A stretch of 26,048 bases of DNA, taken from positions 1 through 26,048 of the IMG/VR virus record IMGVR_UViG_3300020195_000154, one strand, 5' to 3'. The first letter of the stretch is position 1. Each line of letters opens with the position of its first letter. Made by a program: the position numbers and the translations under genes. Source of the stretch: a virus. The notes below the pieces were generated by a model. The model did no database searches. It was not told the origin of the DNA and saw only the letters and a program-made list of their open reading frames with translations. Below are positions 3,629 to 20,115 of the stretch, one piece after another.

Positions 3629-5729
3629 CGTCGTCACCGGCACGGTCGAGCGGACCTACTACAGCGACGCGGCGTTCTCGGCTGGCATGCTCCGCACCGA
3701 CGACGGCGCGAAGGTGCGGTTCCGCGGCAAGTTCTATGCCGCCGCTGGGGATCGGCTCTCCGCGATCGGCACGTGGACGATCGACCCGAAGTACGGCCAC
3801 CAGTTCGAGGTGAAGGAGCTCGACTACGAGCTGCCGCAGACGCCCGAAGGGATCGTCAACTATCTCGCCAAGCATCCCGCGTTCGAGGGGATCGGCGAGA
3901 AGACCGCGAAGCGAATCGTCGACGCGCTGCGGGAGGGCGAGTCGCTGGATGAACTGCTGCGCGGTCGGCCCGCTGATCTCCTCCGCGCCGGAGTGCCGAA
4001 GCGCGTGGTCGAGACCCTCGCCACTGCATGGAACGAGCACGCCAGCGAGAACGCGGTCCGGTCCTACCTCGCGGGCTTCGGACTGACGCACCACCAGATG
4101 GAGACGCTGCTCGGGAAGTTCGGCACGAGCATCGTCTCGATGCTGAAGCACGATCCGTACCTCCTCATCAAGCACCTCTTCGGCTACGGCTTCACGCGCG
4201 TCGACCAGATCGCCCTCAAGATGGGGATCGCGAAGACCCATCCCGGACGCATCGAGGCGGCGCTCTCCCACAGCCTCTCCGAGCAGGTGAACGACGGGCA
4301 CACCTGGACGGCGGGCGCCGACCTCGTCGACAAGGCCAACGAACTGCTGATCATCGACTCGCTCGACAGCCGCGATCTCATCCAGGCGGCCGGGAACCGA
4401 CTCATCGAGCGCGGCGATCTCGTCGCGGACGGCAACGCCGTGACGTCGCCGGGCATCCAGAAGGACGAGCTCCTCATCCGCGACGCGCTCGCTCGACACG
4501 CGTGGCTTCAGCCGGAGCGGATGTTCGACTCGGTGGTCGAGACCGATCTCGGCGACGACCAGCGCGAGGCCTGCCGCACCTCGCGCGGCAGCCGGATCAG
4601 CGTGATCTCGGGCGGCGCTGGCACCGGCAAGACGTTCGTTGTCGCCCGCATCGCCGCCGCATGCCGCCGCTCGGGACATGTGCTTTCGCTCTGCGCGCCG
4701 ACCGGCAAGGCCGCCAAGCGCATCGAACAGCTTCTGGCGAGACACGGAGTCGACGCGTCGGCATCCACGATCCACCGGCTCCTTGGCTACAACGGCATCG
4801 AGTTCCGCGAGGGCATCCTCGCCGCCGATGTCGTCGTCGTCGACGAGTTCTCGATGGTCGACGTCCGGCTCATGGCCGAGCTCCTTCGGCACATCGACCT
4901 CGGCCGCACGCAGCTGATCCTCGTCGGCGACCACCATCAGCTCCCGCCGGTCGGACCCGGCAACGTGCTCCGAGACATCATTGAGCACGGCCTCGCGCCC
5001 TCCACGGTGATGACGAAGGTCCACCGCCATGCGGGGGCGCTCAAGACCAACAGCGTCGGCGTCCTCGACGGCGAGATCGGCCGAAGCGCCGAGGACGACC
5101 GGTCCCGCTGGATCGTCGTCGACAGCTTCCGCGAGGCAGCGGCGATCAAGAGTCACCTGCGGGACCTCATCCTCGACGAGATTCCACGGCGCTTCGGGTT
5201 CGACGCGATCGCCGACGTCCAGATCATCACGCCCGAGCATCGCGGCGACCTCGGCACCAAGTCCATCAACCAGATGATGCAGTACCTGCTGTTCGGCTCG
5301 GTCGACGGCAGGTTCGCCGTCGGCGACAAGGTGATCCAGACCAAGAACGACTACGACATCAACGTGATGAACGGGACGATCGGATTCGTCCGAGAGGTCA
5401 AGAAGGACGGCGTGACGATCGAGTTCGAGGCCAGCGGCACCCACACGATCGACTGGGGCAAGGCGAAGCTGATCGAGCTCGCCTACGCGCTCACGGCCCA
5501 CAAGGCGCAGGGCAGCGAGTTTCCCTGCGCGGTCGTCCTCTGCCACAAGTCGCACTTCTTCGCCGACCGCAACTGGCTCTACACGGCGGTCACCCGGGCG
5601 TCGAACACCTGCGTCCTTGTCGGTGACGACTACGGCCTGCGACGTGCGGCCCGGCATGTCCGGAACATGAACCGCCGCACGCTCCTGAGCCTGTGGGCGG
5701 GCCGCGATCGCACGGAGGCCGCGGCATGA
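3621..5729 (+). CDS. RecD2-like SF1B DNA helicase
   Basis: A 702-residue helicase. The N-terminal ~300 residues resemble RecD2: a beta-rich OB-like start, then helix-hairpin-helix segments (FEGIGEKTAKRIVDAL; DPYLLIKHLFGYGFTRVDQIA). The helicase core has motif I GGAGTGKT (331-338), motif II DEFSM (Asp408-Glu409), motif III GDHHQLPPVGPGNVL, then a C-terminal UvrD/SH3-like region with AYALTAHKAQGSEF (621-634) and WLYTAVTRAS. RecD2 enzymes unwind DNA 5'-3' without RecBC. ATG 3621 overlaps the ERCC4 stop by 8 bases; the stop overlaps the primase ATG by 4. It likely serves as the replicative or recombination helicase partner. About 700 residues is normal for RecD2. Confidence 0.92.
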   Translation: MPDVVTGTVERTYYSDAAFSAGMLRTDDGAKVRFRGKFYAAAGDRLSAIGTWTIDPKYGHQFEVKELDYELPQTPEGIVNYLAKHPAFEGIGEKTAKRIVDALREGESLDELLRGRPADLLRAGVPKRVVETLATAWNEHASENAVRSYLAGFGLTHHQMETLLGKFGTSIVSMLKHDPYLLIKHLFGYGFTRVDQIALKMGIAKTHPGRIEAALSHSLSEQVNDGHTWTAGADLVDKANELLIIDSLDSRDLIQAAGNRLIERGDLVADGNAVTSPGIQKDELLIRDALARHAWLQPERMFDSVVETDLGDDQREACRTSRGSRISVISGGAGTGKTFVVARIAAACRRSGHVLSLCAPTGKAAKRIEQLLARHGVDASASTIHRLLGYNGIEFREGILAADVVVVDEFSMVDVRLMAELLRHIDLGRTQLILVGDHHQLPPVGPGNVLRDIIEHGLAPSTVMTKVHRHAGALKTNSVGVLDGEIGRSAEDDRSRWIVVDSFREAAAIKSHLRDLILDEIPRRFGFDAIADVQIITPEHRGDLGTKSINQMMQYLLFGSVDGRFAVGDKVIQTKNDYDINVMNGTIGFVREVKKDGVTIEFEASGTHTIDWGKAKLIELAYALTAHKAQGSEFPCAVVLCHKSHFFADRNWLYTAVTRASNTCVLVGDDYGLRRAARHVRNMNRRTLLSLWAGRDRTEAAA

Positions 5730-8050
5730 ACGCGACCTGCGAGACCCCTGCAACGACGATCGATCGGCTCGCGCTCCTCGAATGGCTGCGCCCGAACTGC
5801 GAGCCGGATCGGGTCGCGCTGCTCTACCCGAAGCGCGGCGGCGAGCTTTCTCCCGGCTGGGTGATGTCGCAGCAGGACGCCGATCGCGCGATCGCGGCGT
5901 ATCGCGACGGAACGCTCGACGCGGAGTCGTTCCAGTCGACGACCAAGAATGGCAAGGCGTACCGGATCAAGGACGCGGTGCGCCTCGGGCTGGTCCCCCA
6001 TCGCAATGGCCGCGTGCTGACCTTCTGCGTCGATCTCGACGACCACGCGGGCGACGGCGGCACGGTGCATCTCGCCTCGGCCATCGGTCGCTTCTTCGGT
6101 GCAGCACCCATCGTCTTCACGTCGAAGGGCGGCAAGGGCCTCCACTGCTTTTTCCGAATCGCGCAGCCGATCGAGGCAGAGGCCTTCGTCGCGTGGTCCC
6201 GCGCCTGGGGGTTCAACCGCCAAGGCGAGCCGGAGGTGTTTCCGAAGACCCCGAAGAACTCGCAGGCGTGGCTTCCGAACGAGCCCAATGAGCACCGCGG
6301 CGACGCCTACGTCTCGGGCACGTTCGAGACCTGCGTCGTCGCGGCGCTCCCGAAGCCACCGACCACGAAGTTCACGACCACGACCCTTCACTTCCTGCGC
6401 GGATTCGCCCGGCAGCCCGGTCGCAACGAGGCGCTGAACAAGGCGGCATTCGAGCTTGGGTCGAAGCGTGTCTCGCGTCCCGAGGCATCGGAACTCTGCA
6501 TGTTCGGGGCTCGGCTGTGCGGGCTGCTGGCGGAGGAGCCTGAGCAGACTCGTGCCACGTTTGACAGCGGCTACGAGGCTGGCGCGAAGTCTGCACCGGC
6601 TGCGGACGCTTCGGACGGCCATGACGGCCATGACGGGATCAACGCGGTGCCCAAGTTCCGTCGGCTCGACGGCATCGGCAACGGCGAGCGCTTCGTCGAC
6701 CAGCACGGGCAGGATGTCCGGTTCTCCTACGAGCTCGACTCCTGGCTCGTGTGGTCCGGCAAGCGATGGTCGGTCGATGCGCAGGCGGAGGTCGAGGCGA
6801 AGGCGAAGAAGACGGCACGGCTGATCCTCAAGGAGATGGAGCGAGCCCTCGAGGAAGCCCGCGAGGCGGGCAAGACGGACGACGAGCTCGAGGCGATCGA
6901 ATCGGCCTACCGCAAGCAGTACGTGTCGGCCGCCCGGGTCCACGGCGTCCGCGACATGCTCACGATGGCGCAGTCGGAGCCGGGCGTGAAGGTGTCGGTC
7001 GCACAGATCGACGCTGGCCACATGCTCCTCAACGTCCGCAACGGGACGATTGATCTGACGACGGGCAGGCTCCGGCCGCACCAGCGATCCGACGGCATCA
7101 CGAAGATCGCGCCGGCATCGTTTGATCCCGACGCCGACTCCACGCTCTGGCAGTCGTTCCTCGACCGCATCTTCGCCGGCGACGAGGAGCTCATCGCCTA
7201 CATCCAGCGTGCCGTCGGCTACTCGCTCACGGGCCAGGTCGGCGAGCAGTGCCTCTTCTTCCTCCACGGCACGGGGCAGAACGGCAAGTCGGTCTTCATT
7301 CAGACGCTGCTCTCTGTCCTCGGCGAGTACGCCCAGAAGGCGCCGACCGAGATGATCATGAAGCAGGACCGGGCGTCCGGCGGCGGCGCGACGCCCGACA
7401 TGGCGAGGTTGCGCGGGGTTCGACTGGCCGTTACCGCGGAGCTCGACGAGGACCAGCGGATGGGCGAGGCCAAGGTCAAGGACCTGACCGGCGCTGACCG
7501 CATCGTCGCGCGGAAGCTCTACTGCGAGCCTGTCGAGTTCGATCCCACGCACAAGCTCTGGATCTATGGCAACCACAAGCCGTCGATCCGGGGCACCGAC
7601 GACGGCATCTGGCGGCGCATGCGGCTCGTGCCCTTCGCCGTGACGATCCCCAACGCGGAGAAGGACCCGCACCTCGTCGACAAGCTCCAGCTTGAGCGCG
7701 ACGGCATCCTCGCGTGGGCCGTTCGAGGCTGCCTCGAGTGGCAACGCGACGGGCTCGGTCTTCCCCACGCGGTGGCCAGTGCCACGGAGGCCTACCGCGG
7801 CGAGAGCGATCGACTGGCGACATTTCTCGACGAGTGCTGCGTCGTCGGCCAGTGGGCCAGCGTCGGCAAGAGCGACCTCTACTCGGCCTACGAGGCGTGG
7901 TGCCGGGAGTCGGGCGAGCACGCCATCAGCAAGAAGCGGCTGGGCATCCGGCTCACCGAGCGCGGGTTTGCGGAGCGCCGAGACATGCGCCAGCGCTCGT
8001 GGGTCGGCCTCGGGCTGATCGAAGGAGGGCTGCTGCATGCCTCCGCATGA
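5726..8050 (+). CDS. Primase-polymerase (AEP) / SF3 helicase fusion, P4/D5 type
   Basis: A 774-residue two-part replication protein. Residues ~1-220 carry an archaeo-eukaryotic primase-like domain: VDLDDH with Asp103 and Asp105, then SKGGKGLHCFF (133 onwards), the catalytic hDhD and sxH motifs. Residues ~355-395 are a charged helical, coiled-coil-like linker. The D5_N region follows (MLLNVRNGTIDLTTG), then an SF3 helicase: Walker A GTGQNGKS (515-522), Walker B-like VTAELDED and the IYGNHKPSIRG...GIWRRMRLVPF block. A winged-helix-like C-terminus ends the protein. Such proteins prime and unwind phage or plasmid origins; the repeat block directly downstream is a natural target. A slightly longer ATG at 5693 is possible, but the ATGA overlap at 5726 is favoured. 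Confidence 0.92.
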   Translation: MNATCETPATTIDRLALLEWLRPNCEPDRVALLYPKRGGELSPGWVMSQQDADRAIAAYRDGTLDAESFQSTTKNGKAYRIKDAVRLGLVPHRNGRVLTFCVDLDDHAGDGGTVHLASAIGRFFGAAPIVFTSKGGKGLHCFFRIAQPIEAEAFVAWSRAWGFNRQGEPEVFPKTPKNSQAWLPNEPNEHRGDAYVSGTFETCVVAALPKPPTTKFTTTTLHFLRGFARQPGRNEALNKAAFELGSKRVSRPEASELCMFGARLCGLLAEEPEQTRATFDSGYEAGAKSAPAADASDGHDGHDGINAVPKFRRLDGIGNGERFVDQHGQDVRFSYELDSWLVWSGKRWSVDAQAEVEAKAKKTARLILKEMERALEEAREAGKTDDELEAIESAYRKQYVSAARVHGVRDMLTMAQSEPGVKVSVAQIDAGHMLLNVRNGTIDLTTGRLRPHQRSDGITKIAPASFDPDADSTLWQSFLDRIFAGDEELIAYIQRAVGYSLTGQVGEQCLFFLHGTGQNGKSVFIQTLLSVLGEYAQKAPTEMIMKQDRASGGGATPDMARLRGVRLAVTAELDEDQRMGEAKVKDLTGADRIVARKLYCEPVEFDPTHKLWIYGNHKPSIRGTDDGIWRRMRLVPFAVTIPNAEKDPHLVDKLQLERDGILAWAVRGCLEWQRDGLGLPHAVASATEAYRGESDRLATFLDECCVVGQWASVGKSDLYSAYEAWCRESGEHAISKKRLGIRLTERGFAERRDMRQRSWVGLGLIEGGLLHASA

Positions 8051-8253
8051 CACATGTTGGCGATCCATGACACGTCATGACGCATCGGAATCCCGATGCG
8101 TCATGCGTCAAGCGCCGGTGAACGCTTGGGTTGCGCATCGCATGACACATATGACACGTATCTGCCTATGTACGCGTAGCGCGCGCCTGTGTGTGACGCA
8201 CACGCATGTGCGGAAAACTCCTGTTTCTCGCGGTCACATGCGTCATGTGTCAT
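8047..8253. repeat. Iteron-like array of ATGACRCRT; candidate replication origin
   Basis: The gap after the primase gene holds eight exact copies of the 9-mer ATGACRCRT. Five are on the plus strand, starting at 8047, 8067, 8077, 8142 and 8151; three are inverted, at 8096-8104, 8238-8246 and 8245-8253. Near-copies lie at 8103-8111 and 8193-8201. Several pairs form palindromes, for example cgtcatgacg at 8073-8082. The block is less GC-biased than the genes around it and has no convincing coding frame. Dense short repeats next to a primase/helicase gene are typical of phage and plasmid origins; a multi-site operator is the main alternative. Confidence 0.6.
8076..8105. repeat. Perfect 13-bp inverted repeat within the iteron block
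   Basis: Arms catgacgcatcgg (8076-8088) and ccgatgcgtcatg (8093-8105) pair perfectly around a 4-base aatc loop. The outer part of each arm is one iteron copy, so the structure is a head-to-head iteron pair extended by unique bases. It could form a cruciform or bind a dimeric initiator or repressor. Confidence 0.7.
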
Positions 8254-8290
8254 TTGGGGTCACCGACCCTCCCGGAAGGCGGGGTGCGTC

Positions 8291-8692
8291 GTGATCCCAC
8301 CGCTGCCACGAGGTCGGGAGACTGCGCAACCGGATCTGCCGCCCAGCACTCGAACTCCGAAGCCGGTCGCGGCGACCCGACTGGCCGCGCTCCTGCGGGC
8401 AAACGCGTCGGCGGAGGAGATTCGTGATCGACTCCTTCCCAGCTTCTCCTACGACGCGGTGCGCAGCGCCGTACTGCGGTGTGCAGCCTCCGACGAGTTC
8501 GTGAGATCCCTGGCTGATGCGCTCCCCGATGCACTCGATACGACAGCGCACTCCGTCCTCGAGTCATGGCGCAATCAGGACCACCGCGTGCCCGACCGCG
8601 AGCGATTCCGATCGCTCAGACGCCTCGTCGCCGACCTCGACCGATTGGCCGAGACCGTCGCCGCACTTCGTGAAGCGAGGCCGACGTCATGA
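8291..8692 (+). CDS. Hypothetical helical protein downstream of the repeat block
   Basis: A 133-residue protein from GTG 8291, chosen because the open frame upstream runs through the repeat block and because a purine-rich ggaaggcgggg lies just ahead. The first ~30 residues are Pro/Arg-rich; the rest is predicted all-helical (ATRLAALLRANASAEEIRDR, YDAVRSAVLRCAASDEFVRSL, ending in LRRLVADLDRLAETVAALRE, which could form a coiled coil). No family is recognised. Being the first gene after the candidate origin, it could be an origin- or operator-binding protein, but that is only position-based. The stop overlaps the next ATG by 4 bases. Confidence 0.6.
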   Translation: MIPPLPRGRETAQPDLPPSTRTPKPVAATRLAALLRANASAEEIRDRLLPSFSYDAVRSAVLRCAASDEFVRSLADALPDALDTTAHSVLESWRNQDHRVPDRERFRSLRRLVADLDRLAETVAALREARPTS

Positions 8693-9078
8693 GCCGCGGG
8701 AACCGTCACCAGAGGCAGGGCCGTAGGGCCGCGGGGTCGGGCCCGTGTCGCCACGAGTCCCTCGACGCCCGCACGGTCCACGGCGACGGAGCGACGCCAC
8801 ACGCGGCAACGTGGGCGGCCACGGCGCGAGTGGGCGCGATGTGGGCAACTGGGTCGAGTGCGGCCGAGGTCCGTAGGTACTTCCCCCGCCTGAGCGGCCC
8901 GAACCCCCGCACGGAAGACCCGCAATACCCGACTGAGTTTGTTGCGCCGGTCCGAATGCCCGCGACGCCCGCCGTGGCCCGCCACGTTGGCGACAGTTCC
9001 GCCCGCCCCGCGACTCCCGCCAACCGCCCCGACCTCCGACCCGACGCGCCTCGTGGCGACGTCGTGGCCCACTTCTGA
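8689..9078 (+). CDS. Doubtful low-complexity ORF
   Basis: A 129-residue frame whose ATG overlaps the previous stop (ATGA), which favours it. Its composition is dominated by Arg, Ala, Pro and His with little hydrophobic patterning (for example GDSSARPATPANRPDLRPDA), which is what random GC-rich sequence gives. A short central part (ATWAATARVGAMWATGSSAAEVRRYF) is slightly more protein-like. If it is not a gene, 8693-9132 is a ~440-base stretch with no gene and only the hairpin at 9091-9110. No function can be suggested. Confidence 0.35.
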   Translation: MSRGNRHQRQGRRAAGSGPCRHESLDARTVHGDGATPHAATWAATARVGAMWATGSSAAEVRRYFPRLSGPNPRTEDPQYPTEFVAPVRMPATPAVARHVGDSSARPATPANRPDLRPDAPRGDVVAHF

Positions 9079-9132: not shown

Positions 9133-10482
9133 ATGAAGATCGAACTCCGACCGCTCGCCAGCCTCAAGCCCTACGAGGCCAACCCCCGCATCAACGATGA
9201 CGCCGTCGACGCCGTGGCCGCGTCGATCAAGCAGTTCGGATTCCGTCAGCCGATCGTCGTCGACGAGGCGGGTGTCATCGTCTGTGGTCACACCCGCTGG
9301 AAGGCCGCGCAGAAGCTCGCGCTCGAGAAGGTGCCGGTGCATGTCGCCAAGGACCTCACGCCTGAGCAGATCCGCGCGTACCGGATCGCCGACAACAAGA
9401 CTGCCGAGCTCGCCGAATGGGACATGGACCTCCTCGCGATCGAACTCGGCGCGCTCCGCGAACTCGACATCGACCTGGCCTCGCTCGGCTTCGACGAGGA
9501 CGACCTCGCGAAGATCTTCGCTGGCGACATCAAGGACGGCCTCACCGATCCCGACTCGATCCCCGCGCCGCCCGACGAGGCGACCACGCGCCCGGGCGAC
9601 CTCTGGGTGCTCGGCGAGCATCGGCTTCTCTGTGGTGACAGCGCGTTGCCCGCCGACGTCGATCGGCTTCTCGGCGGCGCTGCGATTCATCTCGTCAACA
9701 CCGACCCGCCGTACAACGTGAAGGTCGAGCCGCGCTCGAACAACGCGATCGCTGCGGGGCTCTCGTCGTTCAGCGCGGCGAAGCCGACGCATCACCAGTC
9801 GATGGACGTAGCGCGGCATCCCGAGAAGTCGAAGGCGACGCACCGGCAGCTCCGCGCGAAGGACCGGCCGCTGGCGAACGACTTCGTGACCGACGCCGCG
9901 TTCGACATCCTGCTCGACGCATGGTTCGGCAACATAGCCCGCGTGCTGCTGCCCGGCCGCGGGTTCTACATCTGGGGCGGCTACGCGAATCTCGGGAACT
10001 ACCCGCCGTACCTCAAGAAGCACGAGCTGTACTTCTCGCAGGGCATCGTGTGGGACAAGCAGCATCCGGTGCTCACGCGCAAGGACTTCATGGGCGCGTT
10101 CGAGATCTGCTTCTACGGCTGGCGCGAGGGAGCCGCGCACGTCTACCTCGGGCCCAACAACGCGACCGACCTCTGGCACGTCAAGAAGGTGAACCCGCAG
10201 TCGATGGTCCATCTGACCGAGAAGCCCGTCGAGCTTGCGACGCGGGCGATGACGTACTCGTCGCGCCCCGGCGAGAACGTGCTGGATCTCTTCGGCGGAT
10301 CGGGCTCGACCCTCATTGCGGCGGAGCAGACGGGTCGTCGCGCGTTCCTCATGGAACTCGACGCGCTCTACTGCGATGTGATCGTTCAGCGCTACGAGGA
10401 GTTCACGGGCAAGAAAGCAGAGCGCGTCGCTGCGACAAACTCTCAGGCCGAAGAGAAAGCCCCGGCAGGAGCCGAGGCGTGA
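9133..10482 (+). CDS. ParB-like domain / beta-class DNA methyltransferase fusion
   Basis: A 449-residue protein. Residues ~1-100 form a ParB/sulfiredoxin-type domain (PLASLKPYEANPRIN, GFRQPIVVD, GHTRWKAA at 52-59, VPVHVAKDLTPEQIRAYRIADN). The rest is an N4-cytosine/N6-adenine methyltransferase: catalytic DPPY at 191-194, then the AdoMet-binding FGGSGSTLIAAEQTGR from 387. DPPY before FGGSG is the beta-class order. It would methylate phage DNA at a specific site, protecting it from host restriction or marking it. No restriction endonuclease is nearby, so it looks like an orphan phage methylase. AAGGA precedes the ATG at 9133. The last ~30 residues are a Glu/Ala-rich tail. Its 3' end faces the leftward cassette. 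Confidence 0.93.
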   Translation: MKIELRPLASLKPYEANPRINDDAVDAVAASIKQFGFRQPIVVDEAGVIVCGHTRWKAAQKLALEKVPVHVAKDLTPEQIRAYRIADNKTAELAEWDMDLLAIELGALRELDIDLASLGFDEDDLAKIFAGDIKDGLTDPDSIPAPPDEATTRPGDLWVLGEHRLLCGDSALPADVDRLLGGAAIHLVNTDPPYNVKVEPRSNNAIAAGLSSFSAAKPTHHQSMDVARHPEKSKATHRQLRAKDRPLANDFVTDAAFDILLDAWFGNIARVLLPGRGFYIWGGYANLGNYPPYLKKHELYFSQGIVWDKQHPVLTRKDFMGAFEICFYGWREGAAHVYLGPNNATDLWHVKKVNPQSMVHLTEKPVELATRAMTYSSRPGENVLDLFGGSGSTLIAAEQTGRRAFLMELDALYCDVIVQRYEEFTGKKAERVAATNSQAEEKAPAGAEA

Positions 10483-19539: not shown

Positions 19540-20115
19540 ATGCACCCGACAGTCGTCATCAAGCAGACCCCGGTCGGACTCGATGTCCAGATCGACTATC
19601 CGGCGCTCCCCGACGGCGGCGAGCGTCCACCGGTCGTCCAGTCGATCGGCCCGCTCGTCCTCTCGAAGTCGGCGCGTTCGAGCGTCCTCAGCGTCGACGC
19701 GGAGATCCCGCCCGAGATCCCCGGCGAGATCGCGGTCGAGTCGATGCAGCTCATGGTCGGCCATCCCTGCGACCGGAACCTCGACGGCACGGTTGACGCG
19801 GCGGACCTCGGCATGCTGCTGGCGGACTCGGACGTCGACGGCGCGGCCATCGGCCGCCTGCTCGGCGCCTGGAACGAGCGCACCGTACCGACGCTCGTCG
19901 CCCGCTCACCATCTGTCCCCAGGATGGGCGGCACCGGCGGCGGCAAGTTCAAGCTCACGGTCACGGGCTCCGACCCGGTGATCGCCGACACCGACGGCTG
20001 GGTGTTCGTCACCCACCGGATCACGCTCCCACCGAACACGCCCGCGAAGGTGCGATGGCTCCTTCCGCTTGCGCCCGCCTCTTCCCCCTCGAATCCCGCG
20101 ATCAAGGAGTCCTGA
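19540..20115 (+). CDS. Virion-associated protein with dockerin-type Ca-binding loop
   Basis: A 191-residue protein from ATG 19540, well served by ccggaggc. The first ~70 residues are beta-rich (VVIKQTPVGLDVQIDYPALP...SIGPLVLSKSARSS). Residues 78-89 are a perfect 12-residue EF-hand/dockerin loop (D-x-N-x-D-G-x-V-D-x-x-D, in DRNLDGTVDAADLGMLL), followed by a degenerate second repeat (DSDVDGAAIGRLLGAWN). Residues ~120-191 are beta-rich again (GKFKLTVTGSDPV, WVFVTHRITLPPNT). It lies between the capsid gene and a DUF2190 decoration-type gene, so it may be a capsid decoration or accessory protein with a calcium-binding module. Dockerin loops of this type are common in planctomycete proteins. Confidence 0.75.
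   Translation: MHPTVVIKQTPVGLDVQIDYPALPDGGERPPVVQSIGPLVLSKSARSSVLSVDAEIPPEIPGEIAVESMQLMVGHPCDRNLDGTVDAADLGMLLADSDVDGAAIGRLLGAWNERTVPTLVARSPSVPRMGGTGGGKFKLTVTGSDPVIADTDGWVFVTHRITLPPNTPAKVRWLLPLAPASSPSNPAIKES

Follow-up and report, generated by a model that had tools for sequence, protein, structure and literature searches.

An iteron array directly 3' of a D5-type primase-helicase gene as the probable replication origin of a tailed phage

A dense array of short repeated words occupies positions 8047-8253 of the window analysed here, a 26,048-base stretch of DNA that constitutes the whole of IMG/VR record IMGVR_UViG_3300020195_000154 and is probably a fragment of a phage genome. Judged from sequence comparisons, this block is very likely a replication origin, or at minimum a cis-acting replication element, whose 9-bp words would be read by the primase-helicase encoded immediately upstream. 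An earlier note on this DNA had proposed the phage origin or the binding array of a regulator; we favour an origin with an initiator-binding array because the block adjoins the primase gene, is conserved in related phages with words that drift in a coordinated manner, has counterparts annotated as the origin of Streptococcus phage Sfi21 and as crr of P4, and belongs to a family of arrays in which, in a related clade, the word co-varies with the C-terminal domain of the primase. That note could match the motif to no known initiator, and here we can improve on it: given that the word tracks this domain in the related clade, the most likely initiator is the primase-helicase itself, acting through its C-terminal winged helix.

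The word ATGACRCRT has eight exact matches within 8047-8253 and none in the rest of the record, while 100 dinucleotide shuffles gave a mean of 0.85 and a maximum of 3. The earlier count of eight copies in both orientations is thus borne out, and the check by counting and shuffling that had been proposed finds them, within the record, in the block only. Five matches lie on the plus strand, namely ATGACACAT at 8047-8055, ATGACACGT at 8067-8075, ATGACGCAT at 8077-8085, ATGACACAT at 8142-8150 and ATGACACGT at 8151-8159, and three on the minus strand, ATGACGCAT at 8096-8104 and again at 8238-8246, and ATGACACAT at 8245-8253. The two near-copies that had been described are also real, one being TTGACGCAT at 8103-8111 (minus strand) and the other, at 8194, retaining the TGACGC core only. 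The block contains ten copies of the core TGACRC, a density of 45 per kb compared with 1.0 per kb outside it. As had been remarked, the first copy overlaps the primase stop codon, the TGA at 8048-8050 being the TGA of the unit. The primase TGA likewise belongs to the first TGAC unit in L009, L012, L013, L016, L017 and L048, as it does in the window (8047-8050), so that in several phages the primase reading frame runs into the first site. We agree with the earlier note that the block holds no credible gene: the open reading frame at 8037-8294 differs from L009 at 25, 17 and 23 first, second and third codon positions, respectively, and was rejected as coding since it lacks a coding signature. 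A switch in GC skew, which the note had suggested looking for, was not visible at the array, which counts against the origin reading. No sigma-70-type promoter-like or terminator-like site was found within the block, and an RNA-family search with it returned nothing.

From left to right, the block consists of two plus-strand units (8047 and 8067), a palindrome, a tandem plus-strand pair, a gap and an inverted minus-strand pair. The palindrome (8076-8105) is made of two facing iterons, those at 8077 and 8096, set in perfect 13-bp arms around a 4-nt loop. The core of the array comprises the left tandem pair (8142/8151, spaced nine bases apart) and the right inverted pair (8238/8245, seven bases apart), which flank a 78-bp central gap (8160-8237), the presumed melting or loading region, that is found at the same place in relatives. 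The GC content is 55-60% in the block and 59% in the gap, compared with 68% in the record. The gap is therefore only mildly AT-richer than the record and, instead of the AT-rich centre of PICI and SaPI origins, carries alternating purine-pyrimidine tracts, of which the 17-nt run at 8196-8212 is the longest in the whole record and the 12-nt run at 8167-8178 is tied for second. The palindrome, the ordered ++ / -- layout and the position of this longest run are additions to the earlier note.

The same block, with its layout kept, lies directly 3' of the primase stop in five relatives whose primases share 90% (L009), 77% (L010 and L011), 73% (L012) and 72% (L016) identity with that of the window; the facing pair that forms the palindrome, the tandem pair, the central gap and the inverted pair are common to these close relatives. 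Arrays of the same kind follow the primase in L017 (50% identity) and L013 (46%). The word differs between phages, reading ATGACRCRT in the window and L009, TGACRCAA in L010 and L011, TGACAGAT in L012 and L016, and GTGACGGA in L013, and its copies within one phage drift together, including the units outside the palindrome. The palindrome is preserved through paired changes in eight relatives, with 96.9% of cells paired in the corresponding alignment (A7), 13 cells changed on both sides, and none of 500 shuffles scoring as high. Paired changes of this kind are expected if the facing sites of one protein co-drift, and are thus no proof of a stem-loop by themselves.

The gene upstream of the array (5726-8050, plus strand) encodes a D5/P4-type primase-helicase of 774 aa, the presumed initiator, with matches to TIGR01613, D5_N, DUF5906, Pox_D5 and the PHROG DNA primase families. 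Its TIGR01613 score of 312.6 bits, against a cut-off of 108.7, places it within that family, and its wider fold matches D5-type hexameric helicase-primases. The protein also carries what appear to be AEP-like motifs, for which there is no Pfam match. At its C-terminus, a winged-helix domain (7811-8017, plus strand; AF2 model, pLDDT 91) is the presumed reader of the iterons, with a recognition helix (the KKRLGIRL region) encoded at 7931-7960 and a wing at about 7970-8017, both on the plus strand. Modelling of the C-terminal 97 residues from a single sequence gave a poor result, which was left aside, and single-protein scans of viral contigs with the window primase and with L026 gave no matches.

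The relationship between word and protein was analysed in 74 AcaML1-type relatives, a related clade that is about 40% identical to the window over the helicase part, the window's own clade having only a handful of members. In 66 of the 74, the compact origin has left and right words that share an identical core. When word class was compared with the protein columns by mutual information, the top five columns, and 13 of the top 15, fell in the C-terminal domain, which accounts for 45 of the 161 variable columns (hypergeometric p 1e-6). A tree built from the helicase part alone requires at least 11 changes of the word. Residue 390 (K/R) and the word (G/C) go together in 66 of the 68 rows, and the residue follows the word in all five well-supported independent pairs, a number with which a sign test can reach p 0.0625 at best. 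Only columns 390, 393 and 410, out of 107 variable columns, track the word in at least 4.4 of the five pairs; of the 80 columns that precede position 346, none reaches this level, and no column of the helicase domain tracks the word equally well. When transferred to the window model through alignment A4, residues 390, 393 and 397 lie in the recognition helix, spaced as would suit a single face of it, whereas 407 and 410 lie in the wing.

From these features we infer how the element may operate in the window phage. The C-terminal winged helix of the primase-helicase would bind the TGACRC words, and the pairs at 8142/8151 and 8238/8245 would seat two helicase assemblies face to face across the 78-bp gap, in the manner of a double hexamer, with the upstream palindrome and units serving as additional loading or copy-control sites. 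The SF3/D5 helicase motor could then open the central gap, and the N-terminal primase domain would prime the exposed strands, so that initiation would be followed by bidirectional replication.

Comparable arrangements are known from characterised elements. In PICIs the origin is reported to follow the initiator gene immediately on its 3' side and to have two iteron sets around an AT-rich region, and plasmids carrying pri-ori are maintained (PMC6092414); SaPI Rep is reported to recognise iterons just downstream through its C-terminal domain, and Cch2 to bind direct repeats on the downstream side (PMC7581432). Like the pri-rep-ori units of PICIs and SaPIs, the window array abuts the 3' end of its presumed initiator gene and sets opposed iteron pairs (8142/8151, plus; 8238/8245, minus) around a central region, as do its relatives. 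Reading of the iterons by the C-terminal domain, as in SaPI Rep, may apply to the window; in the related clade the word co-varies with the recognition helix and the wing. The window differs in its word, in its alternating purine-pyrimidine centre and in coming from a tailed phage: the record encodes its own terminase, portal, capsid and tail proteins, and is therefore a phage rather than a PICI. The Sfi21 record annotates the block after its primase as 'origin of replication, 302 bp non-coding region, phage inhibitory sequence', and this element has been described as origin-like, with an effect that depends on copy number (PMC6356513). Sfi21 shares with the window a non-coding iteron block directly 3' of the primase gene, words in the ++ / -- order, and upstream genes for a Sak4-like protein, a helicase and SSB; in contrast to the window, it has a GTAAC/GTTAC type word, an AT-rich centre and primase functions annotated in two genes. 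The best reading is that the array belongs with the known replication elements of PICI, SaPI, P4 and Sfi21 type, and that what sets it apart is a gap of alternating purine-pyrimidine sequence rather than plain AT-rich DNA.

The P4 comparison also supplies the strongest alternative. The P4 protein shares a TIGR01613-type C-terminal half with the window primase, and the P4 record places crr directly 3' of alpha, with type-1 repeats (GGTGAACA); as in the window, these are short words in both orientations that begin right after the gene with a facing pair. P4 differs in that crr is a 120-bp direct duplication, in that its alpha protein has a TOPRIM primase (PMC4234260) where the window protein appears to have AEP-like motifs, and above all in that its annotated origin is elsewhere, at the distant ori1. 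The window array might correspondingly be an auxiliary site, bound by the primase-helicase and needed in cis, with synthesis starting at another array outside the 26 kb. P4 needs crr for its replication yet has the same repeats at ori1 as well, some 4.5 kb distant, and the window record is incomplete, so a second array could lie beyond its ends. However, there is no second cluster within the 26 kb, and the site after the initiator gene is the origin itself in Sfi21 and in PICIs (PMC6092414), which the ++ gap -- core matches. We consider such an auxiliary role unlikely.

Far less probable is that the array serves as an operator or partition site for another phage protein, such as a repressor, the product of the gene at 8291 or a ParB_N-methyltransferase. 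The genes upstream of the array encode an exonuclease, a Sak4-like annealing protein, a single-strand binding protein, an ERCC4-type nuclease, a RecD2-like helicase and the primase-helicase, and those downstream encode the ParB_N-methyltransferase, terminase, portal and capsid; this gene order is that of a phage replication module with a head module after it. Short sites in arrays can have regulatory functions, and the gene for the ParB_N-domain protein with an N6/N4 DNA methyltransferase (9133-10482, plus strand) is a conserved neighbour beyond the array, present 3' of it in L009, L010, L011, L012 and L017 at 66-88% identity; we list it as context and do not claim it as a binder. Yet the annotated genes next to the array differ in other phages (AcaML1, PSA, CrimD and Sfi21), in the AcaML1-type set it is the C-terminal domain of the primase that the word tracks, and the block has no sigma-70-type promoter-like site. 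The 8291 product is an improbable binder, as it has no family match and only one weak relative (30%), in L016. Readings of the block as a regulatory, partition or packaging site were rejected on similar grounds, there being no promoter-like or terminator-like site and the ParB_N-methyltransferase not being a general partner of such arrays. The least likely reading, to which we give almost no weight, is a pRN1-type origin in which the palindrome is recognised as an extruded stem-loop and the scattered words are incidental: pRN1 does require a stem-loop 3' of its primase-helicase gene (PMC4234260), and the palindrome is kept by paired changes, but these are to be expected of two co-drifting sites, the units outside the palindrome are also conserved and drift with it, and the AcaML1-type set keeps the ++ gap -- order without an obvious palindrome of this kind. 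pRN1 ORF904 and BPP-1 resemble the window in combining primase, SF3 helicase and winged helix in one protein and in having a cis element after the gene; they differ in having no clear iteron array there (for pRN1, PMC4234260), and the window's 13-bp palindrome sits within an iteron array rather than forming a large stem-loop free of iterons.

Some further features of the record deserve mention. The methyltransferase with its ParB_N domain could possibly have a role in marking the origin. A short conserved stretch 3' of the array, at about 8935-9010 in the window, reads RRYFPRLSGPNPRTEDPQYPTEF in one frame and had no match in an Rfam search; it has counterparts at about 3640 in L009, about 12550 in L010, about 12520 in L011 and 5148-5205 in L013, and in other loci it appears as the DNA GGTNCCTTCC...CGGGAACAG. 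In the structural module, positions 19583-19981 encode a protein that has the look of a dockerin-like repeat (DRNLDGTVDAADLGMLLADSDVDG) and no PHROG match.

To place the window array in a wider setting, we surveyed the sequence that follows D5-type primase genes. Similar clusters, each with its own word, are found after the primase in about half or more of approximately 120 phages and prophages. A first set comprised D5-type primase loci from named phages and from Phycisphaerae genomes. In 22 of its 43 loci an exact 7-mer occurred at least five times after the primase, whereas only 0.8% of 785 control blocks taken from these loci contained such a repeat. As this count was chosen after the first set had been viewed, a second set of 77 separate IMG/VR loci provides the independent check, and gave 36 of 77 against 0.5% of 1,151 control blocks. 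With a looser count of at least four copies, the totals were 28 of 43 and 52 of 77. A mismatch-tolerant 8-mer statistic and a measure of repeat coverage discriminated poorly, and the exact 7-mer count was preferred to them; a query with RcapNL yielded only six loci. The words vary widely among loci (AGTAACA, GTGGATA, GCACAGA, AGGGACG and TGACGGA, for example), and the ++ / -- order is frequent, with about 7-10 bp inside pairs. By the strict count, about half of the D5-type loci have no clear array (such as L020, L031 and L049), and BPP-1 was rejected as a member for the same reason; the trait is accordingly common and not universal.

Of the 74 AcaML1-type origins, 70 contain an alternating purine-pyrimidine run of at least 17, compared with 0.19% of control blocks, although these loci are closely related and do not represent 74 independent cases. 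In the first set, 10 of the 29 arrays have runs of at least 14 positioned between the opposed pairs, compared with 1.2% of control blocks, and several of these arrays belong to the window's own clade. Long runs are rare in the diverse second set (two of 52 arrays), and in AT-rich phages the centres of arrays are often ATATAT runs. The GC-rich alternating tract may have a role in strand opening, and could be an element for melting, for adopting the Z form or for priming. In many of the AcaML1-type origins of L135-L214, a second inverted element of the GTAACT ... AGTTAC type seems to flank the alternating tract about 150 bases after the primase stop, and a loose pattern for it matched 44 of 75.

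Collectively, these data provide a likely origin, and a likely initiator, for a group of phages in which nothing in the literature consulted describes an origin. Close relatives of the window primase are found in Phycisphaerae metagenome-assembled genomes, and the host of the phage is therefore probably a member of that class. Arrays of this type follow the primase of many ordinary phages, and the survey suggests that, for many uncultured phages, the origin can be located in the sequence directly 3' of the D5-type primase gene. Tentatively, and with rather less than even confidence, we propose a general rule for many tailed phages, in which opposed iteron pairs follow a D5-type initiator gene and the C-terminal winged helix reads a legible word code through positions i, i+3 and i+7 of the recognition helix together with the wing, the centre being, in several GC-rich clades, an alternating purine-pyrimidine (Z-DNA-prone) tract rather than AT-rich DNA. 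The co-variation amounts to a concrete recognition code that is open to testing, and it is this code, together with the broader rule, that makes the finding of interest.
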